NCBI RefSeq assembly: GCF_002246015.1 | Contig: NZ_NOLJ01000006.1 | Coordinates: forward strand, 190,232-254,231 | DNA from: Nostoc sp. 'Peltigera membranacea cyanobiont' 210A | Lineage (GTDB): Bacteria; Cyanobacteriota; Cyanobacteriia; Cyanobacteriales; Nostocaceae | Length of the DNA stretch: 64,000 nt | Reading direction: 5' to 3' | Part shown: in pieces, positions 35,403 through 51,734 of the stretch | Position numbering within the stretch: position 1 is the stretch's first letter | How the letters are laid out: each line of letters starts with the position of its first letter | Notes under the pieces: model-generated | Seen by the model: the letters and a program-made list of their open reading frames with translations, nothing else | What the model was told of the DNA's origin: nothing | Databases searched by the model: none | Position numbers and translations under genes: made by a program

Positions 35403-35834
35403 ATGAAAAACATCACAAAATGGCTTTTGGGTTTGGCGATTGTTCCTGCAAGTTTGGTATTGGCATCTAGTCATGTTAAAGCCAGTCAAATTGCTGGTGA
35501 GTGGTTCTTTGGTCTCTGGGATTGTAATATTGACGGTAGACCAGCGACAATGCAGTGGAAAGTAGTCGATGATCCACAAACTAGTTGTAACGGTGATGTT
35601 TGCTCTACTACTTCTGGTGTCCGTCTTGTCGGGCGGTTTAGTGATAACGGTAGTCCGTGGGTTCCTCTAGGAAAACGTTTTTCCAGCAGACAAAAACAGG
35701 ATTTAGGTATTCGTTATTTAGGTGCAGAACAAGATAACTGGTATCTCAAATACAACAGCAGTACTAAAATAGCAGATGGTTGGACGACATGGCGGGGGAA
35801 GCGCTATCCACTACAATGTCGTAATCGCAGATAA
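35403..35834 (+). CDS. Exported small protein, DUF6006-like
   Basis: 143 residues. The signal peptide ends near residue 28 (SSHVKAS). The mature domain of about 115 residues is rich in aromatic residues (GEWFFGLWDCNIDGR, WYLKYNSSTKIADGWTTWRGKR read as two motifs) and has four cysteines likely to form disulfides. It resembles the cyanobacterial DUF6006 family of exported proteins with no known function. The gene is isolated. A weak ribosome binding site (AAGGA) precedes the ATG. Confidence 0.65.
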   Translation: MKNITKWLLGLAIVPASLVLASSHVKASQIAGEWFFGLWDCNIDGRPATMQWKVVDDPQTSCNGDVCSTTSGVRLVGRFSDNGSPWVPLGKRFSSRQKQDLGIRYLGAEQDNWYLKYNSSTKIADGWTTWRGKRYPLQCRNRR

Positions 35835-35935
35835 ATATTTGCCAAATTATGCAAAATATGTAAATAAGCGATCGCTAACTTTGAGTACTAAACACACCAG
35901 TACCAGATTTTTATTTAACTTGACAGGCTAATCCT

Positions 35936-36613
35936 TTAGTTAGCCTGAGCTTGCTGCCACAGAGTATTAACAGTCACAAACTCATAACCTTGTTGTAGCA
36001 GTTGTGGAATGAGAATTTGAATTGTGGCAGCAACATCTTGTCCACCGCAAGCACCATCATGCAAAACAATTATTGAACCATTTTTCACCTGCTGCATAAT
36101 TCGCTGTACCACGGTGGTGACACCTGGTCGCACCCAGTCTTCGGGTACAACGCTCCACATAACTGGGCGGTAATTCCACTGAGAAAAAAAATTTAAAGTA
36201 GCAGGTGTAAAGAAACCATTGGGGGGACGGACATCTCGCACTTGTTGAGGTTGCAGGTTGCAGGCATTATAAATGGCAGCTTGGGTTTTTTCTAAACTGT
36301 CCTTCAGGTCATTTGGGGAAAGCATGGGAAAAGAGCGATGATCGTAGCCATGCAATCCAATCCAGTGTCCGCGATCGCTAACGGCTTTAGCAATGGCTGG
36401 TGAACGGTTGACGCAAACACCCAACCAAAAAAAACTCGCTGTAATCTTGTAACGATCTAATACAGCCAAGACTTCGGGCGTGTATTGCGGATGTGGCCCA
36501 TCATCAAATGTGAGTGCGATCGCTTTAGTATCGGGATTCCCACCCCAAAGGCAGTTGGGAAAACTCGGCTGGAGAATGCGGTAGAAAATTGGGAAGAGGG
36601 GAGCTAGTTGCAT
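35936..36613 (-). CDS. Polysaccharide deacetylase (NodB homology domain)
   Basis: 225 residues. The carbohydrate esterase 4 motifs are present: TFDDGPHP (catalytic Asp pair), HGYDHRS (metal-binding His pair), and late IIVLHDG. The protein is little more than the NodB domain. It removes acetyl groups from N-acetyl sugars of peptidoglycan or exopolysaccharide. No signal peptide is obvious, although the first 15 residues are hydrophobic (PLFPIFYRIL). The substrate is unknown. Confidence 0.88.
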   Translation of the reverse strand: MQLAPLFPIFYRILQPSFPNCLWGGNPDTKAIALTFDDGPHPQYTPEVLAVLDRYKITASFFWLGVCVNRSPAIAKAVSDRGHWIGLHGYDHRSFPMLSPNDLKDSLEKTQAAIYNACNLQPQQVRDVRPPNGFFTPATLNFFSQWNYRPVMWSVVPEDWVRPGVTTVVQRIMQQVKNGSIIVLHDGACGGQDVAATIQILIPQLLQQGYEFVTVNTLWQQAQAN

Positions 36614-36720
36614 TTTGCGTTTATCTACTTTGTAACAAAATTTGTAACAGCAATACTATTTGAGCTATTACTCGTCTAGATTGATGAGAAATCTAAGGGT
36701 AATCCCTGAATTAAGGGTTA

Positions 36721-37617
36721 ATGCTGCTAAAAGATATACGAGATTATCAGATTTTATTTCTGGGCTTATTCCTAGTCTTGGGAATCGGTACACGAGATTG
36801 GACGCTGCGACCAGAGTTGATTGGGGTAGCGATCGCCACAAGTCTAGCAACTCAATTGATATTGTCATTAGTCACTTGTACTGAGCGACTCGTGCCGAGC
36901 GGAGCCGAGGTAAGCCGAAGTATTGGTCATTGGTCATTAGCAAATGACAAAGGACAAAGCCCAAATTTTCGCAGTGCTTTAATTACCTCACTGGGACTCA
37001 GTTTACTGTTGCGGGCTGACCACTGGACGACAATGGCAATAGCCGCAGTTCTTGCGATTGTCAGCAAATTTATCTTCCAAGTCGGCAATAAGCATTTCTT
37101 CAATCCCGCCAATTTTGGCATCATATCTGCCTTGATTCTCACCCCCGATGCTTGGGTTTCGCCGGGACAATGGGGTGAAGAGTGGTGGTATGGGCTATTA
37201 TTTCTCGGTACTGGCGGCATGATTTTGCAGCGCATTGGTCGTTGGGACACCACAGCAGCTTTTTTGGGTTCCTACTCTTTGCTGGAAGCCATTCGCAATT
37301 TCTGGCTGGGTTGGACTTGGGATGTTTACTGGCATCGATTGATGAGTGGCTCTTTGCTGCTGTTCGCCCTATTTATGATTACAGATCCGCGATCGATTCC
37401 CAATTCCCGAATTGGGCGTATAGTTTGGGCAATCTGCATCGCTGGATTAACCTTTATCCTGCGAAATTATTTCTTTGTTTCCACAGCAGTTTTCTGGGCG
37501 CTGTTTGCCCTTGCACCGTTGAGCATCTTGCTAGATGTTTTCTGGTTAGCCCCAAGGTTTACTTGGCAAGAGAAAGATGAAGAAGCAGGGGTAAAACTCC
37601 TAACTCAGCACTCCTAA
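36721..37617 (+). CDS. RnfD-like membrane protein
   Basis: 298 residues with about eight hydrophobic spans. It resembles the RnfD/NqrB membrane subunits of ion-translocating electron transport complexes, for example in the FNPANFGI segment and the DPRSIPNS segment. Residues about 53-82 (TERLVPSGAEV, then SRSIGHWSLANDKGQ) are encoded by dispersed-repeat DNA inserted in frame between two membrane spans. Other Rnf subunits are absent, and it is followed by a DUF2330 gene 63 bp downstream, a pairing seen in cyanobacteria. The function is not established, and energy coupling is unlikely without the other subunits. Confidence 0.75.
   Translation: MLLKDIRDYQILFLGLFLVLGIGTRDWTLRPELIGVAIATSLATQLILSLVTCTERLVPSGAEVSRSIGHWSLANDKGQSPNFRSALITSLGLSLLLRADHWTTMAIAAVLAIVSKFIFQVGNKHFFNPANFGIISALILTPDAWVSPGQWGEEWWYGLLFLGTGGMILQRIGRWDTTAAFLGSYSLLEAIRNFWLGWTWDVYWHRLMSGSLLLFALFMITDPRSIPNSRIGRIVWAICIAGLTFILRNYFFVSTAVFWALFALAPLSILLDVFWLAPRFTWQEKDEEAGVKLLTQHS
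36877..36965. repeat. Composite of dispersed repeats inside the RnfD-like gene
   Basis: The segment begins TGTACTGAGCGACTCGTGCC and continues with an imperfect palindrome, then ATTGGTC-ATTGGTC and CAAATGACAAAGGACAAAG heptamer-like units. These words are typical of intergenic STRR and palindromic repeats in this window (compare 55635-55793). It adds about 29 codons without a stop. Confidence 0.75.
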
Positions 37618-37621
37618 CTCT

Positions 37622-37649
37622 TGTACAGACGCGATTCATCGCGTCTCTA
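37622..37649. repeat. Palindromic repeat, same family as 15327-15380
   Basis: TGTACAGACGCGATTCATCG followed by CGTCTCTAG, a palindrome between the RnfD-like and DUF2330 genes. It shares the GACGCGAT...ATCGCGTC core with the units in the helicase-like gene and at 47944-47971. Confidence 0.8.
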
Positions 37650-37680
37650 GTGTCTAGCACTAAAAAAGTAGAGGTATAAA

Positions 37681-39057
37681 ATGAAGTTTTTTCGACTTTT
37701 AACACCATTATTGTTAGCTATTGTAGCTGTTTTATGCTTTGCCCCCGCAGCTTGGGCATTTTGTGGATTTTATGTAGCCAAAGCTGATACAAAACTGTAT
37801 AACCAAGCTTCTCAGGTAGCGATCGCGCGGGATGGCGATCGCACTATCATGACAATGGCAAACGATTTTCAAGGCGAAGTCAAAGATTTTGCAATGGTAG
37901 TACCAGTGCCAACGGTGCTGCAAAAAGAGCAAGTTCGCGTCACCCAACCCAAGATTATCGAGCGGCTAGATGCTTTTAGTGCGCCGCGATTGGTTGAATA
38001 TTTCGACCCAGATCCTTGCGCCCCAGTTTACGAAAGAGAGTTATCAGCAGCACCAGCCCCAGCAGCAGCGAGAAGTGAAGCGGGGGGTGCAAGGGACGAT
38101 GCTAGTTTGGGTGTGACGGTTGAAGCACGTTTTAACGTTGGCGAGTACGACATTTTGATCCTCAGTGCGAAAGAATCTGGTGGATTGGAAACTTGGCTTA
38201 AACGCAATGGCTACAAAATCCCCAGAGGTGCGAAACAGTTACTTCAGCCTTACATTCGCTCCTCAATGAAATTCTTTGTTGCTAAAGTCAATTTGGATAA
38301 ATTCGAGCAATCTGGCTACCAGTTTCTCCGTCCACTACAAATTTCATACCAATCGCCTAAATTCATGCTGCCAATTCGTTTAGGCATGATCAATGCTAAG
38401 ACAGAGCAGGATTTGATTGTCTACATTCTCTCGCCCCAAGGACAGGCAGAAATCACTAACTATCGGACGGTAAAAATTCCCTCCGACGCGAACATTCCCT
38501 TATTTGTCAAAGATGAATTTGGTGAATTCTACAAATCCATGTTTCAAACTATCTACACCAAAGAAGACAGGAAAGTTGGTTTTTTAGAATACGCTTGGGA
38601 TATGGGTAGTTGCGATCCTTGTTCTGCCGAACCCCTAACTCCAGAAGAACTTAAGCAAGCAGGTGTATTTTGGCTAGATGATAATTCTACAAGTAATGTG
38701 CCAGTATCCCCCAGCTTTCGTCGTCCCTCTCCTAGAAGTAACGTCTTCATCTCTCGATTGCATGTTCGCTATACCCGCGACAAATTCCCTGAAGACTTGA
38801 TATTTCAACAAACTGCCAACAGTGAATCTTTCCAAGGACGCTATGTTTTACAACATCCGTTCCAAGGGGAACTCAAGTGTCAGGCTGGTAGAGAATATAG
38901 GCAGTCTTTACCCAAACGTTTTGAACAAGAGGCGCAAACTCTAGCTAAACTAACCAACTGGAAAATCCAAGATATTCGCAACAAAATGAAATTGAGTGTA
39001 GGTAATCTGCGATATTCTTGGTGGGAAAATGTCCTATCCTGGCTGGGATTGTATTGA
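37681..39057 (+). CDS. DUF2330 domain-containing exported protein
   Basis: 458 residues. A signal peptide ends near AAWA (residue 26), directly before FCGFYVAKAD, the DUF2330 start. It includes FAMVVPVP and CDPCSAEPL motifs, with cysteines likely paired. A span-like hydrophobic end (WWENVLSWLGLY) is short, so a membrane anchor is uncertain. It is probably exported or periplasmic. It follows the RnfD-like gene and may be in one operon with it. The function is unknown. Confidence 0.8.
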   Translation: MKFFRLLTPLLLAIVAVLCFAPAAWAFCGFYVAKADTKLYNQASQVAIARDGDRTIMTMANDFQGEVKDFAMVVPVPTVLQKEQVRVTQPKIIERLDAFSAPRLVEYFDPDPCAPVYERELSAAPAPAAARSEAGGARDDASLGVTVEARFNVGEYDILILSAKESGGLETWLKRNGYKIPRGAKQLLQPYIRSSMKFFVAKVNLDKFEQSGYQFLRPLQISYQSPKFMLPIRLGMINAKTEQDLIVYILSPQGQAEITNYRTVKIPSDANIPLFVKDEFGEFYKSMFQTIYTKEDRKVGFLEYAWDMGSCDPCSAEPLTPEELKQAGVFWLDDNSTSNVPVSPSFRRPSPRSNVFISRLHVRYTRDKFPEDLIFQQTANSESFQGRYVLQHPFQGELKCQAGREYRQSLPKRFEQEAQTLAKLTNWKIQDIRNKMKLSVGNLRYSWWENVLSWLGLY

Positions 39058-39127
39058 GGAGATTGGGGACTGGGATTGGGAGACAAAGAGAATTAGAGCC
39101 TCAGTCATCCACCTCAGATACTCAAAT

Positions 39128-39156
39128 CTCCCAGTCCCCAGTCCCCAGTCCCCAGT
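39128..39156. repeat. STRR of CCCCAGT heptamers
   Basis: Four near-perfect head-to-tail CCCCAGT units lie between the DUF2330 gene and the sigma-factor-like gene. Complementary GGGGACTGGGATTGGGAG-type words occur at 39064-39082, so the two can pair. Confidence 0.75.
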
Positions 39157-39234
39157 ATCTTGACGAAAGGTAATTATTTCGGGTGTTGTTATACGCAATA
39201 CTAAGATATTCTTGCTTTCTTCGCCAAGATTGTC

Positions 39235-39885
39235 ATGGTTCAATTCGATGAACAGCTACGCCGCTTAGTTACAGAAGCCTGTGGACACCAACCTGGAAGC
39301 CCCCAGCGTCAGAAGCTGCTCACGCAAATTATTCGCTTGACAGCAAGTAGACTCTGGAGGGAAACTACTCCCTACTATCAAGACGCACTACAACAAACTT
39401 GGTTGTATTTCTGTCGCAATGTTTGTGAAGGTTTGACAGGTCAAATCTACGATCCCAATTATGGCAGTGTGATCACTTGGCTGAATGCTTACCTAAAACG
39501 GAGACTACAAGACTTTTACCTTAAGCAGAACCGAGAACAAGCCACAACAGTCCCTCTGAAAATTCGTCAGTCTACATCTGGTGGAACAAGTGAAACCATC
39601 GATCCTGTAGATAATCTACCGGCTAGCCCCCAAGCACCTCCGATTTTGGAAGACTTAGAAATATGGGCGAAGACAGATTCGGATGAGCAACTGCGCGGTA
39701 CTTACATTAAAGGGCGTCCAGATGTGAATTGTCAGGTGTTAATTCTCAAACGCTTACCCCCAGAAGTTAGCTGGAAAGATTTATCTGAGGAATTTGGGTT
39801 GTCAATTCCGACATTAAGCAGTTTTTATCAACGCCAATGTTTACCGCGTTTGCGTAAGTTTGCAGAATTGGAGGGATTATTATGA
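39235..39885 (+). CDS. Sigma-70 family-like RNA polymerase sigma factor
   Basis: 216 residues. The N-terminal half has a region-2-like segment (ETTPYYQDALQQTWLYFCRN, then SVITWLNAYLKRRLQDFYL) and the C-terminal half a region-4-like helix-turn-helix (VSWKDLSEEFGLSIPTLSSF, then YQRQCLPRLRKFAEL). The linker between them is Pro/Ser-rich. It resembles the ECF-like sigma factors found beside CHAT and DUF1822 genes in cyanobacteria. There is no anti-sigma factor next to it. It probably directs transcription of the CHAT cluster downstream, an inference from position. Confidence 0.75.
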   Translation: MVQFDEQLRRLVTEACGHQPGSPQRQKLLTQIIRLTASRLWRETTPYYQDALQQTWLYFCRNVCEGLTGQIYDPNYGSVITWLNAYLKRRLQDFYLKQNREQATTVPLKIRQSTSGGTSETIDPVDNLPASPQAPPILEDLEIWAKTDSDEQLRGTYIKGRPDVNCQVLILKRLPPEVSWKDLSEEFGLSIPTLSSFYQRQCLPRLRKFAELEGLL

Positions 39886-40485
39886 TTGGTGCTGTTAGCG
39901 AATAGTTAGGGTTGAGCCAGTGCTGAGTCAGAAGTAGTACTGATGAATCTCCCCATTTTCAGCCGAGGAATTCATTCCTGGAATTGATTTGATGTCTAAG
40001 CCTAGTTAATTTTACTTTTTACTCATCACTATTTCGGTGGGTTTTTGGTTAAGGTTCGCGATCGCTTTTTAACTACAACAAATTGCATGATGAGGTAGAG
40101 ATAATCGTAGAGGCACAACATGTTCATTGGTATCAACTTAAGCCCAAATCCCTTTAAAACCTCGTTTCCAGCCTCTGGGCTGGAAATGCACTTCAATTGC
40201 GGCTCTGCCGCCAGCAAGAGAGGCGGAGTCTCTAAGACGGCATTCCCAGTCGGAGCAGGGGAACGAGACAATCTAAAAGCTGGTTCTAGGATGACTTTTA
40301 CGTTAAGTTGACACCAATGCAACATGATGTGCCCCTACCCATGTAGTTGATTTACTTTGCCAATCAAGTTTCACTGCGATCGCCATAAATAAGAAAATTG
40401 TGGAAGCTCAAAGATTGATGAGGAATGGGAATGGTAACATTACCCTGTTAGCCTATGTGTTTCTGGTTATCACCTACCTCTCGTC
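39886..40485. other. Intergenic region with hairpin and dispersed repeat
   Basis: 600 bp without a supported gene. 40165-40186 is a perfect 9-bp hairpin (TTTCCAGCC-TCTG-GGCTGGAAA), followed to about 40270 by a GC-rich dispersed element (GGCGGAGTCTCTAAGACGGC and CATTCCCAGTCGGAGCAGGG). The promoter of the CHAT-TPR gene probably lies in the last 150 bp. Confidence 0.5.
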
Positions 40486-43215
40486 ATGCTTATGGCTAAA
40501 ACAACTAGGATTTTTGGCGCGAATTCTCTAAAGTTTAAAAGCAGGAGTTGGAAAACGGCAAGGACGCGCTGGCTGACTCCACTAACTCACTGTTTACGTT
40601 TGCCTTTGTACTTCCTGATCGCTTTGCTATGCATTGTCGGTTCACCAGTGCTAGCAAAAGTTCCTAGCTCTATCAATTCTTTATCCCAATTGCCAATAAA
40701 TAGTCTAACATCGCTGGCTGTGCCCACTGATGCCGCTTCACTCCTACAGCAGGGCAAAGTTTTATACAGTAATGGCAAATTTGCCAAAGCTGTAGAAGTG
40801 TTACAACAGGCTGTCCAAATATATAAGCAGCAAGGGGAGAGCCTTGCACTGGCAGCCACATTGAGTAATCTTTCCCTAGCTTACCAGCAACTCGGTGCAT
40901 GGAGTCAGGCGCAGCAGGCTATTACAGAAAGCTTAAATTTACTCCAAGGACTGGATAAAAACCAAAATCTGCAAATATTTGCCCAATCACTAGATATTCA
41001 AGGTCGTCTGCAATTGGCAATGGGACAGTCCGAGGCAGCTTTGGCAACTTGGCAGCGGACAGAAGAAATTTACAAACAAGCAGATAATCAAAGTGGCGTG
41101 GTGCGATCGCTAATCAATCAAGCACAGGCGTGGCGCACCCAAGGATTTTACCCGCGAGCGTTCAAAACACTCGACCGAATAAGTAAGACGTTAAAATCTC
41201 AACCAGATTCTCTAGAAAAGACAGTGAGTTTGCGATCGCTCGGTGATGCCCTTTTGGTATTGGGCGATTTGAAAAAGTCACGCCAAGCCCTAGAAGAAAG
41301 TTTGATAATTGCTCAAAATCTCCAATCAAGCGCTGATATTGGGGCTAGTCTGTTCAGCTTGGGGAATAATGCCCGTAAACAAAACCAAAAGGAACAGGCG
41401 ATCGCCTATTATCAACAAACAGTCGCAGTATCTCCCTCACCCCTCACAAAAGTTCAAGCACAACTCAATCAACTGGGACTACTGATTAAAGATAGAGAAT
41501 GGGCAAAGGTTCAAACTCTTTTGCCGTCGATTCAGTCCCACCTCAAGCAACTCCCCCTCAGCCGTGCGAGTATTTACGCTCATGTTAACTTTTCACAAAG
41601 TTTAGCAAAAGTCAAGAGTGGTGTATTGCAAGCATCAAGTCACAGTTTTTACTCAGGATTAAGTACAAAAGACTCAGCAAAATTACTCGCTAGTGCCATC
41701 CAGCAATCCCGCAGTTTAGAAGACAAACGGGCAGAAGCTTATGCTCTGAAGAGTTTAGGCGGCTTGTATGAAGAAACCAAACAGTGGTCAGAAGCGCAAG
41801 ACCTAACCCGGCAAGGATTAGCTTTGGCACAGAGTAGCAATGCACCAGAAATTACCTATAGCTTGGAGTGGCAGTTAGGTAGATTGCTTTGGGCACAAAA
41901 AGATATTAATGGTGCGATCGCCGCTTATGATGCTGCTGTAGACACTCTTGAGTCTCTCCGCAGAGATTTAGTAGTTAATAAAGATGTAGTGAACCAGGAT
42001 GTGCAATTTGATTTCCGAGACAGCGTAGAACCCGTCTACCGCCAGTCAGTAGAGTTACTGCTGCAATCTCAAAAAGGAAAACCAAATGAAAAAATATTGG
42101 AGAAAGCACGCGAACGGATTGAAGCACTCCAACTAGCCGAATTAGATGACTTCTTTCAGGAAGCTTGTCTGCAAGGTCAGAAAGTAGCCCTCGATCGAGT
42201 CGTAGAGAAAGATAATTCCAAGGCTGCCATCCTTTATCCAATTATTCTTCGTGACGAACTCCAGGTAATTGTCAAAATTCCTCAACAACCTCTGCAAAGC
42301 TACAGTACCAAGATTTCCCAAGGAGAAGTAGAGAAACTCTTAATAGAACTGCGAAGAAATCTTGTCAATCCAACTGCTACTAAGATCGTCCAAACCCAAT
42401 CGCAAGAAGTTTACAACTGGCTACTTAAACCCATTGAGTCACAATTGCAACAAAGTCGCGTCGATACTTTAGTGTTCGTCCTAGATGGGCCATTACGCAA
42501 TTTACCAATGGCAGCTCTCTACGATGGTAAACAATATTTAGTAGAGAAATATGCGATCGCCCTGAGTGTCGGTCTACAACTCCTCGACCCGAAACCGCTG
42601 GTAAAACAGCAGCTAAGAGCGCTAACCGCAGGGCTAACTCAGCCACCGCCAGGATTTCCCAAGTTTGCACCATTGCTGGCGATTAAATCTGAATTTGACG
42701 GTATTGCTAAAGCAGGAGTTTCGACAACCAGCCTATTGGATGGAGATTTTAAGAAAAAGAATTTGGAAAGTGAAATTGGTGCTACTTCATTCAACATAGT
42801 GCATTTGGCAACCCACGGTCAGTTTAGCTCCCGCCTTGAAGACACTTTTATATTAGATTTCGATGGTCAGATCAATGTCAAAGATTTTGATACTCTCTTC
42901 CGCAATCAGAGTAAAACCGTAGTAGAATTATTGGTTTTGAGTGCTTGCCAGACAGCAACAGGAGACAGCCGTGCAGCACTTGGTCTAGCAGGAGCAGCTG
43001 TCCGAGCTGGGGCACGTAGTACCATCGCTTCCCTATGGCAAATTGATGATGAATCAACAGCGATGTTTGTTAGTGCCTTCTATCGAGAACTCAAGAGTGG
43101 CAAAATCACCAAAGCCGAAGCAGTTCATCGTGCCCAACTACAACTGCTGAAACATCCCAACTATAGAGCGCCAAGCTTTTGGTCTGCCTATGTATTGATT
43201 GGCAATTGGTTGTGA
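40486..43215 (+). CDS. TPR-CHAT domain protein (caspase-like)
   Basis: 909 residues. An N-terminal signal/anchor (about residues 35-60) precedes tetratricopeptide repeats (about 85-500), then a CHAT domain at the C-terminus with HLATHGQFS (His777) and LSACQTATGD (Cys821), the His-Cys dyad of the caspase-HetF-associated (C80/caspase clan) proteases. The final segment GARSTIASLWQIDDEST and ILIG-type end are standard for CHAT. In other CHAT systems the TPR part is the partner-binding region and the protease is activated on binding. The substrate here is unknown. The hydrophobic N-terminus suggests membrane association or export. The internal ATG at 40492 is an alternative start. Confidence 0.85.
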   Translation: MLMAKTTRIFGANSLKFKSRSWKTARTRWLTPLTHCLRLPLYFLIALLCIVGSPVLAKVPSSINSLSQLPINSLTSLAVPTDAASLLQQGKVLYSNGKFAKAVEVLQQAVQIYKQQGESLALAATLSNLSLAYQQLGAWSQAQQAITESLNLLQGLDKNQNLQIFAQSLDIQGRLQLAMGQSEAALATWQRTEEIYKQADNQSGVVRSLINQAQAWRTQGFYPRAFKTLDRISKTLKSQPDSLEKTVSLRSLGDALLVLGDLKKSRQALEESLIIAQNLQSSADIGASLFSLGNNARKQNQKEQAIAYYQQTVAVSPSPLTKVQAQLNQLGLLIKDREWAKVQTLLPSIQSHLKQLPLSRASIYAHVNFSQSLAKVKSGVLQASSHSFYSGLSTKDSAKLLASAIQQSRSLEDKRAEAYALKSLGGLYEETKQWSEAQDLTRQGLALAQSSNAPEITYSLEWQLGRLLWAQKDINGAIAAYDAAVDTLESLRRDLVVNKDVVNQDVQFDFRDSVEPVYRQSVELLLQSQKGKPNEKILEKARERIEALQLAELDDFFQEACLQGQKVALDRVVEKDNSKAAILYPIILRDELQVIVKIPQQPLQSYSTKISQGEVEKLLIELRRNLVNPTATKIVQTQSQEVYNWLLKPIESQLQQSRVDTLVFVLDGPLRNLPMAALYDGKQYLVEKYAIALSVGLQLLDPKPLVKQQLRALTAGLTQPPPGFPKFAPLLAIKSEFDGIAKAGVSTTSLLDGDFKKKNLESEIGATSFNIVHLATHGQFSSRLEDTFILDFDGQINVKDFDTLFRNQSKTVVELLVLSACQTATGDSRAALGLAGAAVRAGARSTIASLWQIDDESTAMFVSAFYRELKSGKITKAEAVHRAQLQLLKHPNYRAPSFWSAYVLIGNWL

Positions 43216-43507
43216 TTTGGGGAGTCAATCTTCGTAATTGAACGTTCAAATTGTCCGCTCAAAATTTGGCAACCTATCTGCTAGTTGATAAGCCGCTTTT
43301 AGCAGCTTGAAGCTATCTTTATAGAAGTATAAATACTCAAAATCTCTATCTCCAGATCGTTGCAATATACAATCTTTTAATTTTATGGGATATTTTTACC
43401 TAATCCCCAGTCCCCAATTCTCTTTTTCCAGTATTCAGTTTTGTGGCATAAATTTATTGAATGCGGGTGATATATACATAGCAGCATTGATCCCTAGAAA
43501 TTGACTT

Positions 43508-44476
43508 ATGAATAACTCCACCTATCAGCTAGATGATTTCGCTTTAACATTGCCGATTTCCCAAACAGCCCGCATAACTGCCCAGCAATTTGCTAACCAG
43601 CAACCAAATCTTGAAAAAGCAGAGCAAGTCCGGCTGAATACTTTAGCTGTATGGGTGGTGAATGACTACTTGCAGATGATGGATATTCCTACCGATGTTC
43701 AAGCTAGTGACAGTTGGAACCCCATCATGCGCCTTTGTGGAGATGTCGCTGATTTAGAAGTGCCCTCAATTGGCCGTCTGGAGTGTCGCCCTGTCCATCT
43801 GCATCAGCAAATATGTTTTATTCCTCCAGAAACTTGGGAAGAACGGGTGGGTTATTTAATAGTTCAATTTGATGAATCGCTCGAAGAAGCAAGGCTGCTT
43901 GGTTTTATCCCTACTGTAGCAACTGAAACAGTTCCTTTAGCGCAACTGCAACCATTGGAAGCGTTTATTGACCACATCTGGGAACTGCGTCAATCCCCAC
44001 TTAATTCATTAGTGAATTTGAGTCAATGGTTTGCTGGTATATTTGAGACTGGTTGGGAGACTATTGAATCGCTGTGGAACGTGCCGGAACTCAGACCAAC
44101 TTATGCCTTTCGCAGTGTTGAAACTTTGGAATTAGATACCCTCAAACAACCAGAATCAATTACTAAACGGGCAAAAGTGATTGATTTAGGTATCCAAATC
44201 CACAACCAACCTGTGATGTTGATTGTGGAAATCAGCCCCGAAAAAGATCAACAAACTAGTATTCATCTCCAATTGCACGCCACTGGAAATCAAATCTACT
44301 TGCCACCAGGAGTTCATCTCACTGTTATAGATAGTTCAGGAGCAATATTTCTCGACGCTCAATCTAGAAAATTAGACAACTACATTCAGTTGCAGTTTCG
44401 TGGTGAACCTACAGAGCAATTTAGTGTTAGGGTAGCCTTGGATAATACCAGTATTACCGAATATTTCCGAATTTGA
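43508..44476 (+). CDS. DUF1822 family protein
   Basis: 322 residues, soluble, with the DUF1822 N-terminal pattern (DFALTLPISQTARITAQQFA, then LNTLAVWVVNDYLQMMDI) and a C-terminal beta-rich part. DUF1822 is a cyanobacterial family with no known function that is commonly found near CHAT and CHASE2 genes. It lies 292 bp after the TPR-CHAT gene and 175 bp before the CHAT-CHASE2 gene, all in one direction. Its place suggests it works with them. Confidence 0.85.
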   Translation: MNNSTYQLDDFALTLPISQTARITAQQFANQQPNLEKAEQVRLNTLAVWVVNDYLQMMDIPTDVQASDSWNPIMRLCGDVADLEVPSIGRLECRPVHLHQQICFIPPETWEERVGYLIVQFDESLEEARLLGFIPTVATETVPLAQLQPLEAFIDHIWELRQSPLNSLVNLSQWFAGIFETGWETIESLWNVPELRPTYAFRSVETLELDTLKQPESITKRAKVIDLGIQIHNQPVMLIVEISPEKDQQTSIHLQLHATGNQIYLPPGVHLTVIDSSGAIFLDAQSRKLDNYIQLQFRGEPTEQFSVRVALDNTSITEYFRI

Positions 44477-44651
44477 AATATGTAGCTATCTTCCTTCTTT
44501 GTCGGTAATTTATTAAGTGATAATTCATTAATTAAAAATTAAAAATCCAAGCTAGCTTTTGGGGATTTTGAAAAAATCTGTAGACGCTTGTGAAGCTTGC
44601 GATCGGACATTAGAACAGGGCACGATCTTGGATGGGGAAATAGCGACGGTT

Positions 44652-46994
44652 ATGGGTAAATTAGTGGCGATCAAATTTGGAGAGGGTAGTTTTGAGCAGG
44701 GGTTTGCTGTCACCCTCCAAATTGGTGAAGAACACGAGCGTGCTACAACCGAAATCACCGGGAGGCTCCCTTCATTCCCGGAAATGCCGCTCTATTATAG
44801 TCATTGGCAGTCTAGTTATCGGCAGATAGGCAATCGTTATCGCCTCCATGCTGACCAAATGCAGGTGACGAATGTATCGATGGTGCAAGACTGCGAAAAC
44901 GCTTCTCATATTTTGCGGGCACGCTTTAATACCTGGCTGCGAGCAGAGGAGTTTCGCCCGTTGAGAGAAAAATGGTTAGAAAGATTATCGTCCAGCGACG
45001 AAGTACGGGTGATTCTGCAAACAGAAAATAGCCAATTGCAGCTATTACCTTGGCATCTTTGGGAATTGTTAGAACGCTATCCCAAAGCTGAAATTGCCCT
45101 TTCTTCACCATCTTACGATCGCATTCACAAGCCACGCACTCTCAATCAATTAGTCAATATTTTGGCAATTGTGGGCAATAGCAAAGGGATTGACACCCAA
45201 GCCGATCGAGCTTTACTGCAACAGTGTAGTAACGCAGAGGTGAGCTTTTTGGTAGAACCACAACGTAAGGAACTGACTGAGCATCTCTGGGGAAAAAACT
45301 GGGATATTCTTTTCTTTGCCGGACACAGTTCTAGTAACAAAAATGGAGAAAGCGGACGAATTTATCTGAATAGAACTGATAGTCTTACCATTGGTGAGTT
45401 AAAATACGCCCTCAAAAAAGCCATTGAAAACGGTTTGCAATTAGCTATATTCAACTCCTGTGATGGATTGGGGTTGGCGCGAGAATTGGCTGATTTGCAA
45501 ATTCCTCAAATAATTGTCATGCGCGAACCCGTCCCAGACCAAGTTGCGAAGGAGTTTTTAAAATATTTTCTCCAAGGCTTTGCCGGTGGCGAGTCTTTAT
45601 ATCAAGCGGTACGCCAAGCGCGGGAACGCTTGCAAGGACTTGAAGATAGATTTCCTTGTGCAACTTGGCTACCAGTAATTTGCCAAAATCCGGCGCAGAT
45701 ACCACCGACTTGGGATGAATTAAGGTCTACAAAATCTGAAGATGAAGAGCAAGCAAGTTTACCTTTGTCTAACAGACGCAAATTTAAGAGAACTGTATTA
45801 TCCAGCTTGGCAGTTACAGTCTTGGTTTTTGGCGTGAGATTGGTGGGATTGCTAGAAAATCCAGAGATTCAAGCCTTTGACCTAATGATGCGATCGCGCC
45901 CTACGGAAGGTCTCGATCCCCGACTGTTGATTATCACAATTGACGATGAGGATTTAGCGACTCAAAGACAAAATGGCGAGTCTTTGATTGGAGCTTCTAT
46001 TTCCGAAAAATCTCTCAATAAACTCTTAGCAAAACTGAATCAATACCAACCCCGCGCGATCGGCTTGGATATCTACCGTGATTTTCAGGCCAAAGAGCCA
46101 GATTTAATTACTCGCCTCCAGCAAACTCAGAACTTGGTTGGCGTATGCAAGGGGAGCGATCGCTCAGGAAATATCAAAGGCATTAAGCCGCCACCAGAAA
46201 TCCCTCCAGCAAATCTGGGATTTAGTGACTTTATTCACGATCGCGATGGAGTTATTCGTCGGCATCTTCTATTCATGAATCAGGAGACGACATCATTGTG
46301 TTCTGCTCCATATTCCTTCAGTTTACAACTAGCATCTCTTTATCTGCACCCTTTAGGAATTCAAACAAAGTTCACCCCTGAAGGAAATTTGCAGTTGGGT
46401 AAGACTATTTTTCCGAATCTGAAGTCTCGTACTGGTGGCTATCAAAATATTGATGCGAATGGCGGTCAAATCTTACTCAACTATCGTTCTTCAAAAGAAA
46501 TAGCCGAACAGGTAAAGCTAACGCAATTTTTATCTAGTCCAATTAACCCCAACGCCATCAAAAACCGGATTGTTCTCATTGGTGTGACTGCAAAGGGCGA
46601 TTCTCCAGACACCTGGCCTACACCTTACGGCATTCCTTTAGATGAGCAAATGCCAGGAGTACTGGTACAAGCTCACATGATCAGCCAGATCCTTGGTGCA
46701 GTCCAGGATGGGCGGCCTTTGCTGCGGGCTTGGTCATGGTGGGCTGAGGTCGCCTGGATTTGGAGCTGGTCTTTGATTGGGGGAGTCCTGGCTTGGCGCA
46801 GACTTTCGTTACCCTGGTTGGCATTGGCAATCGGTATTACTTCTAGCCTTTTGTATGTACTTTGCTTTGGTCTGTTAATTTCAGGAGCTTGGGTGCCTTT
46901 CGTACCCTCGGCTTTATCGTTGGTAGCTATGGGGGTTTTAATGTCAATTTATAGTAATTCAAAAACAAAAGTGCGGGTGGGGAATGAGAAATAG
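44652..46994 (+). CDS. CHAT-CHASE2 membrane protein
   Basis: About 780 residues. An N-terminal region (MGKLVAIKFGEGSFEQGF, about 1-130) is followed by a CHAT domain with FAGHSS (His225) and FNSCDG (Cys270), the protease dyad. One span (about 375-395) leads to an extracytoplasmic CHASE2 sensor (about 400-650), and three C-terminal spans (about 675-765) anchor it. CHASE2 domains normally sit outside the membrane and sense unknown ligands. Here the sensor is joined to a caspase-like cytoplasmic domain, instead of a kinase or cyclase. The frame opens upstream at a TTG (44559), but the ATG at 44652 gives the family-like N-terminus. Confidence 0.85.
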   Translation: MGKLVAIKFGEGSFEQGFAVTLQIGEEHERATTEITGRLPSFPEMPLYYSHWQSSYRQIGNRYRLHADQMQVTNVSMVQDCENASHILRARFNTWLRAEEFRPLREKWLERLSSSDEVRVILQTENSQLQLLPWHLWELLERYPKAEIALSSPSYDRIHKPRTLNQLVNILAIVGNSKGIDTQADRALLQQCSNAEVSFLVEPQRKELTEHLWGKNWDILFFAGHSSSNKNGESGRIYLNRTDSLTIGELKYALKKAIENGLQLAIFNSCDGLGLARELADLQIPQIIVMREPVPDQVAKEFLKYFLQGFAGGESLYQAVRQARERLQGLEDRFPCATWLPVICQNPAQIPPTWDELRSTKSEDEEQASLPLSNRRKFKRTVLSSLAVTVLVFGVRLVGLLENPEIQAFDLMMRSRPTEGLDPRLLIITIDDEDLATQRQNGESLIGASISEKSLNKLLAKLNQYQPRAIGLDIYRDFQAKEPDLITRLQQTQNLVGVCKGSDRSGNIKGIKPPPEIPPANLGFSDFIHDRDGVIRRHLLFMNQETTSLCSAPYSFSLQLASLYLHPLGIQTKFTPEGNLQLGKTIFPNLKSRTGGYQNIDANGGQILLNYRSSKEIAEQVKLTQFLSSPINPNAIKNRIVLIGVTAKGDSPDTWPTPYGIPLDEQMPGVLVQAHMISQILGAVQDGRPLLRAWSWWAEVAWIWSWSLIGGVLAWRRLSLPWLALAIGITSSLLYVLCFGLLISGAWVPFVPSALSLVAMGVLMSIYSNSKTKVRVGNEK

Positions 46995-47060
46995 GGGCAG
47001 GGGAGAAAAGTTTTCCTCTCAGCACCCCGCACCCTCCCCCTCTGCATCTTTTCAATGCCC

Positions 47061-47092
47061 AATCTAAAATCTAAAATCTAAAATCTAAAATC
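47061..47092. repeat. STRR: four tandem AATCTAA heptamers
   Basis: Four perfect AATCTAA units plus a partial one lie just before the DUF928 gene, whose ATG is at 47106. They occupy the expected leader and may influence its expression. Confidence 0.9.
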
Positions 47093-47105
47093 GTATGAGG
47101 GTTTT

Positions 47106-47909
47106 ATGAATTTAAATTCACAATCGATAAAACTGTTTTTAGTAGTAGCTTTTAGCTGTACAAGTTTATTAGCTAGTCTGACTCCAGTACTGGCGAAACC
47201 AACCCCTAATCGTTCTGATGCTAAAACGATCCTTGCTCAAGCCAAAACCTTTAATCAACCTCCAATTCCAGCTGGCTCCCCTCCTGGAGGTCGCGTTCGT
47301 GGTGGAGCGAAGCGCACCGGGCCGGAGGGATGTCCACTTACTAAAATTGACTTGACTGCTTTAGTACCCTTTACTCAGGAAGCTAACTCTGTAATTAATG
47401 TCTGGGGACAAACAACAGTAGAACATCCAAGTTGGTTTTTCTATGTGCCATATACCAAAGATTCGCCATATACAGTTGAATTTGTGTTGCAAGATCCAGA
47501 CGCTAACGAGGTATACAAAAAAGCGATCGCTTTATCAGATAAGCCAGGAGTCATCCGCGTTTCTTTGCCTAGCAATGCACCCGGTTTAGCAGTAGACAAA
47601 CAATACCGTTGGTTTTTCACCATTAACTGTGACAAGCAAAAGAATTCGCCCCCAACTTTTGTTGAAGGGGTAATAAAACGAGTTAATCTGAGTCAAGCAA
47701 CAGTCAAAGAAATAGAAACGGCTGAACCTCTAAAACGCTATGCTATCTATGCCCAAAATGGGATATGGTACGAGGCACTGACGACGTTAGCTGAACTGCG
47801 TCAAAAAAATCCTCAAGATGCAGCCCTGAAAGCAGAGTGGCGAAATTTGTTAGGCAGCATCCGCTTAGATGATGTTGCCGGAGAACCCATTCTTTCAGGA
47901 ACACCTTAA
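47106..47909 (+). CDS. DUF928 family exported protein
   Basis: 267 residues. A signal peptide ends near AKP (residue 31). The DUF928 core is present: CPLTKIDLTALVP, HPSWFFYVPY and KQYRWFFTINC. A Pro/Gly-rich linker (PPGGRVRGGAKRTGPEG) precedes it. The predicted location is periplasmic or extracellular. The gene comes 111 bp after the CHAT-CHASE2 gene on the same strand. An exported partner beside an extracytoplasmic CHASE2 sensor suggests it could bind that sensor, which is only an inference. The function of DUF928 is unknown. Confidence 0.85.
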   Translation: MNLNSQSIKLFLVVAFSCTSLLASLTPVLAKPTPNRSDAKTILAQAKTFNQPPIPAGSPPGGRVRGGAKRTGPEGCPLTKIDLTALVPFTQEANSVINVWGQTTVEHPSWFFYVPYTKDSPYTVEFVLQDPDANEVYKKAIALSDKPGVIRVSLPSNAPGLAVDKQYRWFFTINCDKQKNSPPTFVEGVIKRVNLSQATVKEIETAEPLKRYAIYAQNGIWYEALTTLAELRQKNPQDAALKAEWRNLLGSIRLDDVAGEPILSGTP

Positions 47910-47943
47910 ACGAGGAAAAAAGAATGCAAGAAATAGACCACTT

Positions 47944-47971
47944 GTAGAGACGCGATGAATCGCGTCTTTAC
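47944..47971. repeat. Palindromic repeat GTAGAGACGCGATGAATCG-type
   Basis: A 28-bp palindrome (GTAGAGACGCGATGAATCGC then GTCTTTAC) in the gap between the DUF928 and convergent prlC genes. It belongs to the family at 15327-15380 and 37622-37649. Confidence 0.85.
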
Positions 47972-48020
47972 GCAAGGATGTGTTGCAATCATTAATTGAA
48001 TTGGTATAAGCAAAAATTGA

Positions 48021-48051
48021 TGTAGAGACGTTGCAATACAACATCTCTACA
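48021..48051. terminator. Hairpin between convergent DUF928 and prlC genes
   Basis: TGTAGAGACGTTG-CAATA-CAACATCTCTACA forms a 13-bp stem with one mismatch, between two convergent genes and 11 bp after the prlC stop codon. It lacks a T-run, so it may be a repeat that doubles as a terminator. Confidence 0.5.
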
Positions 48052-48061
48052 GATGTGTTGT

Positions 48062-50167
48062 TTAGTTTGCAGCAGCACTTACTAAACCATTGTGCCTGAG
48101 CAAAGCGATCGTACTTGGTTCACGACCCCGGAAAGTTTTAAACACCTCCATTGGATGCTTGCTACCACCGAGTGCTAGCACCGTATCACGATAACGCCGA
48201 CCTGTAGTTTTTATAGCTTCTTCATTTTCTAGCCCAGCTTCTTCAAAAGCGGCAAAAGCATCAGCACTAAGGACTTCAGCCCATTTATAACTGTAGTAGC
48301 CTGCTGCATAACCACCCTCAAAAATGTGCCCAAAAGAACACAACATTGAATCTTCTGAAAGTGGTGGTAAAACAGTAGTAGTCTTAGCTATGCGATGACG
48401 CACATCTGCTGGAGTTTCATTGCTGCCAGAACGATAGCGGTAGTGTAGTTCTAAATCAATACTGCTAAGGTGAATTTGCCGTAACATACCAGTACCACTC
48501 ATATAATTACGCGCCGCTAGCAGCTTTTGATAATAATGCTCTGGTAGGGCTTCTCCAGTTTCGTAATGTTTAGCCATACCAAACAAAGTGGGTCGCTCAT
48601 AACACCAGTTTTCCATAAACTGACTGGGTAGTTCCACTGCATCCCATTCCACATTATTGATGCCTGCGGCTCCAGCATAGTCAACCTTGGTGAGCATGTG
48701 ATGCAATCCATGACCAAACTCGTGGAACAAAGTCTCTACTTCATAGAAAGTCATCAAACTCGGCTTGCCATCTACTGGGGGAGTTTGGTTACATATCAAA
48801 TAAGCCACAGGCAATCGGATGGCAGTTGCACCATTTTCAGTTTTGGCACGATTGATGCATACATCCATCCAAGCACCGCCGCGTTTTTCTGCTGGACGGC
48901 TATAGGGGTCTAAGTAGAAGTAAGCGATGGGAAAACCAGTTTCATCGGCTATTTGGAAATAACGGACATCCTCATGCCATACTGGGGCTTTACCATCGGC
49001 AGGGGTTACTGTAACACCAAACAGCCGCTTAACAAGCCCAAACAAGCCATCTAGCACTTGGGGAAGGGGAAAGTAAGGACGTAATTCTTCAGCGGTAAAG
49101 GCAAATTTAGCTTCTCGTTGGCGTTCTGCCCAAAAGCTGATGTCCCAATGTTTTAAATCTTGATATTCTTCTCCATAAGATGCAGCAAAAGCTTGAAGTT
49201 CTTTTAAGTCTTTGACAGCAGCATCATAACTGGCCTGGCGTAGTTCTTCTAATAGTGCTTCAACTGCCTCAACATTAGGAGCCATTTTACTTGCAAGGCT
49301 CAACTCGGCAAAACTCTTAAAGCCAAGTATATCTGCGAGTTCTTGCCGTAACTCCAAAATACGCACAATTAACGGGTTATTATCTAAATCGCCACTAGAA
49401 GCGCGAGTGATATGAGCTTTGTAGAGCTTTTCACGCAAATCTCGACGGGTGCTGTGCTGCATGAAAGGGCCGTAGCTGGGAAAGTCTAAAGTAATGCGCC
49501 AAGGGCCATTTTCTGGTGTGGCGTTCTCTTCTTTTGCCGCACGTGCAGCTTGGGCAGCTAAACTCACCAAACTTGGTGGTAAACCGTCAATTTCCGCTTT
49601 TGTTGTCAGGGTTAAGCTAAAGGCTTTCGTAGCATCAAGTACATGGTTAGAGAATTTAGTAGAAAGTTCTGCCAACTCCATCTGAATGGCATTGAAACGG
49701 TCTCTTACCTCTCCTTCTAAGCCAACACCAGAAAGTTCTGCATCTCGAATGGCGGCTTCTACAATGCGCTGTTGGGCTAATTCTAAAGTTGCCCAACTAT
49801 CACTGCTACGGAGTGCTTTAAAAGCATTGTAGATGGGTTGGCTTTGACCGAGTTTGTTGATAAATTGTACAACTAGTGGCTGTACGATTTCATGAGCTTC
49901 GCGCAGTTCCGGGCTATTTTTAACACCCATTAAATGATTTACCGTCCCCCAACTCCAGGTAAGCCGTTCTGTCAGCTTTTCTAAGGGTTCTACTAAATCG
50001 CTCCAAGTAGGCTGTACACTAGCCTCTAAGGTGGCAAGTTGCTGGTCAAGTTCTGCTAGCAACTGATTGAAGGCGGGTACTACTCGTTCTGGTTTAATCT
50101 CTGTAAATGGAGGTAAACCAGTGCCTTGGAGTAAGGGATTATCAGAAATAATGGTACTTGCACTCAT
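48062..50167 (-). CDS. prlC: Oligopeptidase A (M3 family metallopeptidase)
   Basis: 701 residues, the normal length for M3A oligopeptidases. The zinc motif FHEFGHGLHHML is at about residue 484, and the family segments MENWCYERPT and FGHIFEGGYAAGYYSYKWAE follow. It hydrolyses short peptides, including signal-peptide fragments, in the cytoplasm. No signal peptide is present. It is monocistronic, leftward. Confidence 0.95.
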   Translation of the reverse strand: MSASTIISDNPLLQGTGLPPFTEIKPERVVPAFNQLLAELDQQLATLEASVQPTWSDLVEPLEKLTERLTWSWGTVNHLMGVKNSPELREAHEIVQPLVVQFINKLGQSQPIYNAFKALRSSDSWATLELAQQRIVEAAIRDAELSGVGLEGEVRDRFNAIQMELAELSTKFSNHVLDATKAFSLTLTTKAEIDGLPPSLVSLAAQAARAAKEENATPENGPWRITLDFPSYGPFMQHSTRRDLREKLYKAHITRASSGDLDNNPLIVRILELRQELADILGFKSFAELSLASKMAPNVEAVEALLEELRQASYDAAVKDLKELQAFAASYGEEYQDLKHWDISFWAERQREAKFAFTAEELRPYFPLPQVLDGLFGLVKRLFGVTVTPADGKAPVWHEDVRYFQIADETGFPIAYFYLDPYSRPAEKRGGAWMDVCINRAKTENGATAIRLPVAYLICNQTPPVDGKPSLMTFYEVETLFHEFGHGLHHMLTKVDYAGAAGINNVEWDAVELPSQFMENWCYERPTLFGMAKHYETGEALPEHYYQKLLAARNYMSGTGMLRQIHLSSIDLELHYRYRSGSNETPADVRHRIAKTTTVLPPLSEDSMLCSFGHIFEGGYAAGYYSYKWAEVLSADAFAAFEEAGLENEEAIKTTGRRYRDTVLALGGSKHPMEVFKTFRGREPSTIALLRHNGLVSAAAN

Positions 50168-50701
50168 AGTTTTGTGTGAACAGCGAACGAATAAAAATCA
50201 ACAATGATTTTTAGTTATATATCTTCTAATGTAACGATCGCTGTGCTATTTATTATTGCCATTGTGGCAAAAAGGTAAAAAAAACGATAATTCCTCACAA
50301 AAGTATCCTGATATAACTATTTTGTTTAGTTTATGAACTTTGCGATCGCATATCATAGGTACTTTGCATCGGGAACAGAGTGTATTCACCTAGCTCACTC
50401 TGACTAAAGGGGATGTCTATGGCGGGCTACGCTTACGCAAAAAGACGCGATCGTGTATTATGTCAAACAGGTAACTCCTCCGTCAGCATGAGCGTTACCT
50501 AAAAAGCAGAGTTTCAGCCTGATAATTGCACGTTTTCAAGGCGTAGAAGCATACAAATTAACTGAGCGTCAGCGAGCGTCCTTAGCAAACCGAAAAGGAA
50601 GGCTCCAGATTTCCATATTTATGATATTATTTGGCAACTCATCTTTTTACTCGTAAAATCGAAGACAAGATCAAGGTCAGTAGAAAAGAGTCCCTAAATT
50701 A
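50168..50701. other. Divergent intergenic region between prlC and the 318-residue protein gene
   Basis: 534 bp between divergent genes, with no supported gene. It contains a word GCGGGCTACGC near 50423 that recurs inverted near 59620 and belongs to a dispersed repeat. A 22-codon frame starting with ATG near 50412 is repeat-derived and not a gene. Both promoters must lie here. Confidence 0.45.
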
Positions 50702-51658: not shown

Positions 51659-51734
51659 TACAACATTTCATTAATTATTAGCGAATTCTTTGCGTACCTT
51701 TGCGTTTACCTCTGCGCCCCTACCCTGCGGGAAG

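Follow-up and report, generated by a model that had tools for sequence, protein, structure and literature searches.

A widely conserved cyanobacterial signalling module of an ECF-like sigma factor, a DUF1822 protein and a CHAT-CHASE2 protein, and its possible action as a proteolytic switch

We analysed a 64,000-nucleotide stretch of the genome of Nostoc sp. 'Peltigera membranacea cyanobiont' 210A (positions 190,232 to 254,231 of contig NZ_NOLJ01000006.1; hereafter the window) and find that it holds a real, widely conserved cyanobacterial signalling module. The core of this module comprises genes for a divergent extracytoplasmic function (ECF)-like sigma factor (SIG), a DUF1822 protein, and a membrane protein in which a conserved N-terminal domain and a caspase-like CHAT domain are joined to a CHASE2 sensor (CHAT-CHASE2). 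We tentatively posit that it operates as a one-way transmembrane switch, in which a signal received by CHASE2 would activate the cytosolic CHAT domain, release the sigma factor from the DUF1822 protein and thereby set off sigma-driven transcription; we regard this as quite possible and advance it with due reserve.

The core emerges from a phylum-wide sample of DUF1822 loci, drawn from the better matches among those listed, which yielded 102 open reading frames (ORFs) of 250 aa or more for counting; fragmentary and weak matches, including many low-scoring ones of a picocyanobacteria-like family (f24), were left out. Where the upstream sequence extends for 1.5 kb or more (100 DUF1822 genes), a sigma-like gene of one of two types lies directly upstream on the same strand in 82, at a gap of less than 100 bp in 68 of these 82, and homologues of SIG itself occupy this position at 38 loci. 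Across the sampled loci, matches of at least 150 aa to two sigma hidden Markov models (HMMs) are almost confined to the position immediately before DUF1822 (38 of 42 and 45 of 48); a sigma gene followed by that of its anti-sigma factor is a usual layout. A gene for a CHAT protein bearing the conserved N-terminal domain comes next after DUF1822 at 53 of the 94 loci with at least 1.5 kb upstream and at least 4 kb downstream, and 42 of these 53 show the full sigma-DUF1822-CHAT order. Because such a CHAT gene recurs at so many loci and the host genome (8.3 Mb, 24 CHAT matches) additionally carries two paralogous DUF1822-CHAT-CHASE2 loci, a chance arrangement is excluded. An earlier note on this DNA, made from its letters alone, had read the cluster as a proteolytic signalling system that would stand or fall with conserved co-occurrence of its families across cyanobacteria, and they are indeed widely found together.

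The 18 DUF1822 loci without an adjacent sigma match have a TPR-CHAT gene directly upstream in four cases, a gene for a protein of 470-503 aa in six and mixed genes in eight (L213, scored as lacking a sigma gene, has a sigma ORF that overlaps DUF1822 beyond our limit; L and G numbers label individual loci and genomes). The 470-503-aa proteins, which replace the sigma gene in L137, L152, L184, L217, L219 and L222, look alike at their starts; the two of the six that were scanned have no Pfam match, and they are possibly a third sigma-like or DNA-binding family.

In the window itself, all five same-strand ORFs of the earlier note are present where it had placed them (Table 1). Pfam backs four of them: the TPR-CHAT protein (CHAT at 3.4e-57, plus TPRs), the DUF1822 protein (1.2e-87), the CHAT-CHASE2 protein (CHASE2 at 1.3e-67, CHAT at 2.3e-17) and the DUF928 protein (5.4e-63), while the sigma assignment is backed by the profile and fold searches given below. 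The intergenic gaps across the five genes are 600, 292, 175 and 111 bp, and the five are not one tight operon. The idea that they form one constant operon is likewise ruled out: TPR-CHAT and DUF928 are optional genes that go with CHASE2, and the sigma gene is commonly found at another site. At 36721-39057, ahead of the sigma gene, lie genes for an NQR2/RnfD-like and a DUF2330 protein.

Table 1. Features of the module in the window (positions count from the first letter of the stretch)
Feature	Position	Strand	Description
SIG	39235..39885	+	216 aa; divergent ECF-like sigma factor with region-2-like and region-4-like parts; no Pfam match
TPR-CHAT	40486..43215	+	909 aa; predicted exported; His777, Cys821; optional accessory
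Promoter-like element TGGCATAA-N16-TGATA	43444..43472	+	starts 64 bp ahead of the DUF1822 start codon
DUF1822 protein	43508..44476	+	322 aa; predicted soluble; candidate anti-sigma factor or sigma partner
CHAT-CHASE2	44652..46994	+	780 aa from ATG 44652; 811 aa from TTG 44559
CHAT-CHASE2, predicted domain order	44652..46994	+	'EACC2'-like N-terminal domain, cytosolic CHAT (His225, Cys270), transmembrane segment, extracytoplasmic CHASE2, transmembrane segments
DUF928 protein	47106..47909	+	267 aa; predicted exported companion of CHASE2 sensors

SIG itself goes unrecognised by Pfam, with just an irrelevant HEPN match at 0.16 when the limit is relaxed to E 10; the Pfam sigma-70 models do recognise some of its homologues (at E<=0.05, Sigma70_r4_2 in 11 and Sigma70_r2 in 6 of 39 searched singly). 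Alignment A1 comprises 39 diverse homologues: SIG and, with a 97-aa fragment left out, 38 of the 39 short-type sigma ORFs in the adjacent position. It shows one block resembling sigma region 2 (Y-x-E/D-A-L-Q...Y-D-P...W-x-N) and, towards the C-terminus, another resembling a helix-turn-helix, and the five best PDB matches of the corresponding profile are all ECF sigma chains (E 0.0023 to 0.068). A Foldseek search with the AlphaFold model of SIG (pLDDT 75, pTM 0.42) returns sigma factors as nearly all leading matches, with E. coli sigmaE first at E 7.5e-3 and none below 0.001. From these profile, single-homologue and fold matches we judge SIG to be a divergent ECF-like sigma factor with predicted region 2 and region 4 folds, and the earlier sigma-70-like assignment to be right despite the missing Pfam match. 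The closest named relatives of its gene come from Nostoc, N. punctiforme NIES-2108 among them, with identities of up to 97%. A second, longer sigma family (mostly about 380-500 aa, with Pfam Sigma70_r4 in both members scanned) holds the same position in the genome's two paralogous loci, and hydropathy yields transmembrane-like segments in 2 of 84 sigma proteins. The genome also has a second short-type sigma gene, 78% identical (L003:7546-8433); the stretch retrieved around it has a dCache histidine kinase gene at a distance of about 3 kb and no DUF1822 gene, and other Nostoc likewise hold such solitary copies (e.g. L078, L084).

With the sigma gene as bait (80 of its 155 relatives were kept for locus comparison), DUF1822 and CHAT genes follow in only 12 of the 56 loci with at least 9 kb downstream, so that the positional bond formerly claimed between this gene and the cluster does not hold; its most constant neighbour is an upstream DUF2330 gene, found in 44 of the 59 loci with at least 6 kb upstream. 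What ties the sigma gene of the window to the module is, instead, co-occurrence across whole genomes. Among 99 Nostocaceae genomes, with orthologues defined by at least 62% identity for SIG and E<=1e-90 for DUF1822, both are present in 57, DUF1822 alone in none, SIG alone in 3 and neither in 39. The 62% cut was set after the list had been seen and excludes five genomes with 45-47% matches; with all SIG matches at E<=1e-50 admitted, the counts become 57/0/8/34 in the same order, and one of the genomes counted as SIG-only, G030, does hold DUF1822 (locus L140). A sigma of the long type, taken as a control, yields 48/9/26/16 at E<=1e-80 and 15/42/6/36 at 60% identity, and counting by genus gives 34/0/1/21 for SIG versus 30/4/14/8 for the control. 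Of the 57 genomes with both, 15 have the two genes no more than 20 kb apart (13 with the sigma gene leading on the same strand), 17 have them on one contig at a distance of at least 389 kb, and 25 have them on different contigs.

The genomes with an orphan sigma gene tell the same story. We chose 26 of them from 40 orphan loci, and all 25 that were searched hold an orthologous DUF1822 elsewhere, 60-90% identical. A CHAT-CHASE2 gene comes next at each of the 20 such DUF1822 loci fetched (split in two ORFs in L271), DUF928 is recognised in 17 (one partial; of the others, two are cut by a contig end and one is unrecognised), and TPR-CHAT directly precedes DUF1822 in six. A SIG-type sigma is missing from 18 of the 20, and in the other two (L256, L260) it heads a second, divergent DUF1822 copy. 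For adjacent sigma and DUF1822 proteins matched by locus, pairwise distances give correlations of r 0.754 (38 pairs) and 0.907 (45 pairs), against means of 0.424 and 0.459 when partners are swapped within genomes, the observed value being reached in 0 of 2000 permutations. As far as sequence distances go, this shows the integrity of the pairs, which by itself is no proof of binding.

For the CHAT-CHASE2 protein we prefer the start at ATG 44652 over TTG 44559, because the genome's two paralogues begin (MSKL and MDKL) at the matching residue; the dyad is then numbered as the earlier note had it, whereas the TTG start would make it 256/301. The His/Cys dyad is aligned in 78 of 79 CHAT proteins, the last having both residues in two separate alignment pieces, and the dyad of TPR-CHAT, likewise correctly located before, is kept in 58 of 60, the remaining two being truncated; the loss of dyads in most homologues that would have told against the earlier reading is thus not what is seen. 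The N-terminal region was found in 54 of 58 DUF1822-linked CHAT proteins by an HMM of our own, which is not a model of the EACC2 domain discussed below.

The C-terminal sensor is exchanged on this constant CHAT core. Where 8 kb or more of downstream sequence is available (48 CHAT loci), CHASE2 is found by HMM in 28, and Pfam adds a divergent case that the HMM misses (L224). Elsewhere Pfam recognises Peripla_BP_6 (L143, L145, L179, L201, L206, L208), PBP_like_2 (L157), nSTAND1-WD40 (L137, L183), nSTAND1 (L219), TPRs (L163, L207) or, weakly, HEAT (L200); L151 has pentapeptide repeats N-terminal to CHAT. A transmembrane segment is predicted by hydropathy within 80 aa after CHAT in 31 of 37 CHASE2-type proteins and between CHAT and sensor in all seven binding-protein types. 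The CHAT domain is accordingly predicted to be cytosolic, on the side of the sigma factor, and the sensor to lie outside, in keeping with the outside signal of the earlier reading.

TPR-CHAT and DUF928 belong with the sensor rather than with the core. DUF928 lies within 8 kb downstream of 22 of 28 CHASE2-type modules versus 1 of 20 others (Fisher p 2.6e-7), and TPR-CHAT within 9 kb of 14 of 28 versus 1 of 20 (Fisher p 1.2e-3). Because of N-terminal hydrophobic segments, present in 43 of 47 DUF928 and 46 of 55 TPR-CHAT proteins (residues 39-57 in the TPR-CHAT of the window), both are predicted to be exported, as had been said of DUF928. Predicted export would put both across the membrane from the sigma factor, and hence TPR-CHAT off any direct route to it, so that the picture of two CHAT proteases in one relay is not supported; we read both proteins as probable extracytoplasmic accessories that often accompany CHASE2, outside the sigma relay. 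The host genome also has DUF928 genes next to those for a CHASE2-histidine kinase, a CHASE2-cyclase and a further CHASE2 protein, and in 20 further DUF928 loci CHASE2 occurs within 1.5 kb of 12 of 26 DUF928 genes. The association is not exclusive, because nine unlabelled DUF928 neighbours that were scanned include three ShlB and two TPS secretion genes, the others being unrelated. For N. punctiforme, PMC5587647 noted CHASE2 and DUF928 clustered with WD40 genes, as a lineage-specific case.

Nostocaceae loci share the element TGGCATAA-N16-YGAT(A/G) upstream of DUF1822, at constant spacing, in 35 of 36 cases (all 16 linked to the sigma gene and 19 of the 20 unlinked), and the 36th has TTGCGTAAAT with the spacing unchanged. 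The distance to the start codon varies from 63 to 72 bp, the sequence further upstream varies freely, and the TGGCATAA-N16 element has no other occurrence across 673 kb of the same loci. Its exact form occurs once in the host genome, at the site in the window; mismatched forms there (5 with one mismatch, 75 with two) are near noise, with 81 sites in total versus 45 for the reversed pattern. Given its fixed spacing and placement, the element looks like the -35/-10 pair of a promoter used by an alternative sigma factor, which we infer to be SIG. In 1.8 Mb of DUF1822 loci the relaxed pattern T[TG]GC[AG]TAA-N16-YGATA has 12 matches, of which seven precede DUF1822, four precede a sigma gene of either type (L139, at 287 bp; the near relatives L155 and L158; L175) and one lies elsewhere. 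Twelve other spacers (10-15 and 17-22) give 10 matches in total, none of them before sigma or DUF1822 genes. Looser patterns find few matches outside Nostocaceae. TGCRTAAA precedes 8 of 37 short-type sigma operons versus 11 of 357 control upstream regions, an enrichment that is no more than suggestive. In an unbiased k-mer count, AAGTTTTGTAA-like words are the most enriched before these operons, and in L151, L154, L211, L215 and L216 they stand about 14-15 bp before a (G/C)CGTAAAA element. Near the sigma-DUF1822 locus of L207 (6456-7165, minus strand) are three near-identical TTGCATAAAACTACCGAGT...TGATA copies, 245-435 bp apart.

We would assemble these observations as follows. CHASE2, perhaps together with the exported DUF928 protein, may sense a ligand or the state of the envelope outside the membrane, and this would turn the cytosolic part of the same protein, formed by the N-terminal domain and CHAT, into an active cysteine protease. 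The protease would then act on the soluble DUF1822 protein, which otherwise would hold the ECF-like sigma factor in check. Once released, the sigma factor would transcribe its targets, including the DUF1822-CHAT-CHASE2-DUF928 unit through the TGGCATAA-N16-YGATA promoter, in a positive feedback, and other copies would couple the same sigma-DUF1822-CHAT core to other sensors. Our grounds for inferring that CHAT cleaves DUF1822 and that DUF1822 inhibits the sigma factor are the order of the genes, their predicted compartment, their co-inheritance and two relays already proven, Csx29-Csx30-CASP-sigma and CalpL-CalpT-CalpS. Gene order, co-occurrence and co-inheritance make DUF1822 a candidate anti-sigma factor.

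Several observations weigh against this proposal. Sequence comparison links DUF1822 to no known anti-sigma factor (its two PDB sequence matches, at E 0.45 and 1.4, are not sigma partners), and its fold search gives no match below E 0.001; the RsgI4 anti-sigma sensor domain, fourth at E 4.6e-3 amid unrelated beta-sandwiches, counts as no evidence. With 157 of 322 residues at pLDDT <50, the AF2 model is too weak for a fold assignment. A weak hydrophobic, transmembrane-like stretch is found by hydropathy in 13 of 102 DUF1822 proteins (1 of 102 at a stricter cut). The element pattern was relaxed after some distant matches had been seen; its strict N16 form is present in just 4 of 84 sigma-headed loci (8 of 84 once an N17-AGATA form is added), and for the long sigma type the -35-like part is not clearly enriched (the best p being 0.053). 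The co-occurrence figures are inflated by shared ancestry, only two genera varying internally, and the co-inheritance of neighbours may arise from linkage alone. The CHAT gene is missing downstream at 41 of the 94 DUF1822 loci, and hence CHAT is not always the partner of DUF1822. Finally, other proteases after DUF1822 (three trypsin-like, three TPR-CHAT) look exported at their N-termini (that of L154 by eye, its hydropathy being below the cut-off), so that a simple argument from protease swapping fails; the exception is one soluble C14 caspase (L220).

Among 44 loci without CHAT, 26 have a same-strand gene of at least 150 aa within 500 bp, and the 12 of these that were scanned include several unrelated ones (oxidoreductase, chloride channel, TPS). 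These, with the exported-looking N-termini, rule out the notion that the third gene always codes for a protease acting on DUF1822. Long-type sigma and DUF1822 without such a CHAT gene downstream are seen in L187 (where a DUF4870 protein follows), L188, L190, L193, L194 and L199, and such a pair may represent an independent or older unit on its own.

One could accordingly suppose that sigma and DUF1822 form a regulatory pair while CHAT acts elsewhere, cleaving the sigma factor or an unrelated target, or that the sensor-protease is merely the output of the pair. Besides the loci devoid of CHAT, this would account for a related element 41 bp before an exported TPR-CHAT gene (L169), as though the protease were a target, and for the sigma gene not lying within 20 kb of the module in 42 of the 57 genomes even as the module's own element is conserved. 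Against it stand the predicted position of CHAT on the same side of the membrane as sigma and DUF1822 and the frequency of the order sigma-DUF1822-CHAT; we deem this alternative rather unlikely.

We likewise give a low probability to a conflict or cell-death system of the kind proposed by Kaur et al. (2021), in which a stimulus would trigger self-cleavage of the EACC2-caspase, the sigma factor would mount a broad, possibly anti-invader response, and DUF1822 would be an adaptor and not an inhibitor. The proposal passages in PMC8195603 speak for it, as do the resemblance of the nSTAND1-WD40 and nSTAND1 sensors to sensors of invaders and the presence of DUF1822 relatives on 26 plasmid records. 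Nevertheless, the commonest sensors, CHASE2 followed by periplasmic-binding domains (seven among the others scanned), are both predicted to lie outside the cytoplasm and so indicate environmental or envelope signals. PADLOC models match none of the sigma, DUF1822, CHAT-CHASE2 and DUF928 proteins, with TPR-CHAT drawing just a generic TPR and a weak BovA match. Moreover, defence islands are expected to be patchier than a DUF1822 orthologue found in 57 of 99 family members.

Lastly, the sigma gene of the window could belong to the DUF2330 locus as a mere bystander, unrelated to the CHAT genes, but this is very improbable and we reject it: the constant DUF2330 neighbour, the 40 of 56 loci with neither DUF1822 nor TPR-CHAT counted downstream (L054 among them has a TPR-CHAT ORF overlapping the sigma end) and two genomes with SIG and no DUF1822 match at E<=1e-90 (G200, G230) would fit it, but the orphan-sigma genomes, a co-occurrence far above the controls and the SIG homologues directly before DUF1822 contradict it.

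A broader extension of the proposed relay, which we hold possible though on balance doubtful, is that DUF1822 constitutes a large, unrecognised anti-sigma family serving a Pfam-invisible ECF branch, with many sensors plugged onto one DUF1822-cutting CHAT. The result would be a CRISPR-independent, modular class with a TKGCRTAA-N16-YGATA signature and plasmid-borne copies, of which the window would hold the CHASE2/DUF928 version. By tblastn, the plasmid records with DUF1822 relatives include seven predicted to be conjugative and ten mobilizable. The predicted conjugative plasmid C of Trichormus variabilis ATCC 29413 has sigma, DUF1822 and CHAT in succession (AVA_RS28195, 28190, 28185), followed by a gene for a CAAX-type membrane endopeptidase (L324:9211-9822). 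On a Planktothrix plasmid, sigma and DUF1822 precede a protein annotated as an ABC substrate-binding protein, and on a Tolypothrix plasmid DUF1822 follows a 651-bp gene annotated as hypothetical, near the record end as drawn. To our knowledge, the substrates of cyanobacterial CHAT and caspase-like proteins are mostly unknown. Were the relay true, this common architecture would gain DUF1822 as a substrate, the N16 promoter element as a readout and a swappable input domain. The function of DUF1822 would be named, DUF928 placed as a frequent companion of CHASE2 sensors, and the role of caspase-like proteins in multicellular bacteria would become testable in laboratory strains.

Thus, the earlier reading of a proteolytic signalling system gains from family co-occurrence, kept dyads and predicted topology, and loses its two-CHAT relay, the positional tie of its sigma factor and its claim to describe an undescribed system. 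Kaur, Iyer, Burroughs and Aravind (eLife 2021; PMC8195603) reported EACC2-caspase proteins with variable C-termini including CHASE2, whose genes often adjoin an ECF sigma gene and DUF1822, and proposed autoproteolysis plus a transcriptional step. The core in the window belongs to the kind predicted there, because it matches these neighbourhoods: a caspase-type domain with a variable C-terminal sensor, here CHASE2, and neighbouring ECF sigma and DUF1822 genes, the conserved N-terminal region being a candidate for the constant EACC2 domain. As far as the available parts of PMC8195603 go, DUF1822 is labelled a TPR protein, an assignment that the DUF1822 of the window, lacking a TPR match in Pfam, does not bear out; the exported TPR-CHAT, the unlinked co-occurrence and the promoter-like element were not found in these parts, nor is DUF928 mentioned in the main text. 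New here are the sigma gene upstream of DUF1822 in 82 of 100 cases, the ECF-like SIG, the unlinked co-occurrence, the fixed-spacing element, the range of exchanged sensors and the predicted cytosolic placement of CHAT. A literature search uniting cyanobacteria, ECF sigma factor, CHAT domain and protease found nothing, and the anti-sigma reading of DUF1822 was not found in the literature searched for DUF1822, EACC2 and cyanobacterial ECF sigma with CHAT protease.

Among known systems, one with similar logic is the proven protease/anti-sigma/sigma relay Csx29-Csx30-CASP-sigma of type III-E CRISPR, in which, according to PMC10028731, a CHAT protease governs an ECF sigma factor by cutting its inhibitor, as we propose for the window. 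Csx29 is switched by Cas7-11 and target RNA, whereas the CHAT of the window would be switched by its fused membrane sensor; no CRISPR-like direct repeats (at least 22 bp within 120 bp) were found in window positions 34000-52000, the part of the genome searched for them, and no Cas match among nine proteins scanned around the locus. The likewise proven CalpL-CalpT-CalpS relay shares the three-part logic of protease, anti-sigma factor and ECF sigma factor, but CalpL, according to PMC11417357, is a Lon-type protease activated by cA4 through SAVED, and the protein families differ. HetF of Anabaena is also a cyanobacterial CHAT protein with one predicted transmembrane segment, drawn with TPRs and without CHASE2 in the figure legend of PMC8406250; the window protein is not HetF, scoring 30 bits against the 1200-bit NCBIfam cut-off (NF045509). 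The RseA and RsiW pathways, as cited in PMC10028731, similarly lead from an outside signal through anti-sigma proteolysis to sigma release. RseA is first cut by DegS while membrane-bound, whereas in the window the candidate inhibitor is predicted to be soluble, and sensor and protease are united in one protein.

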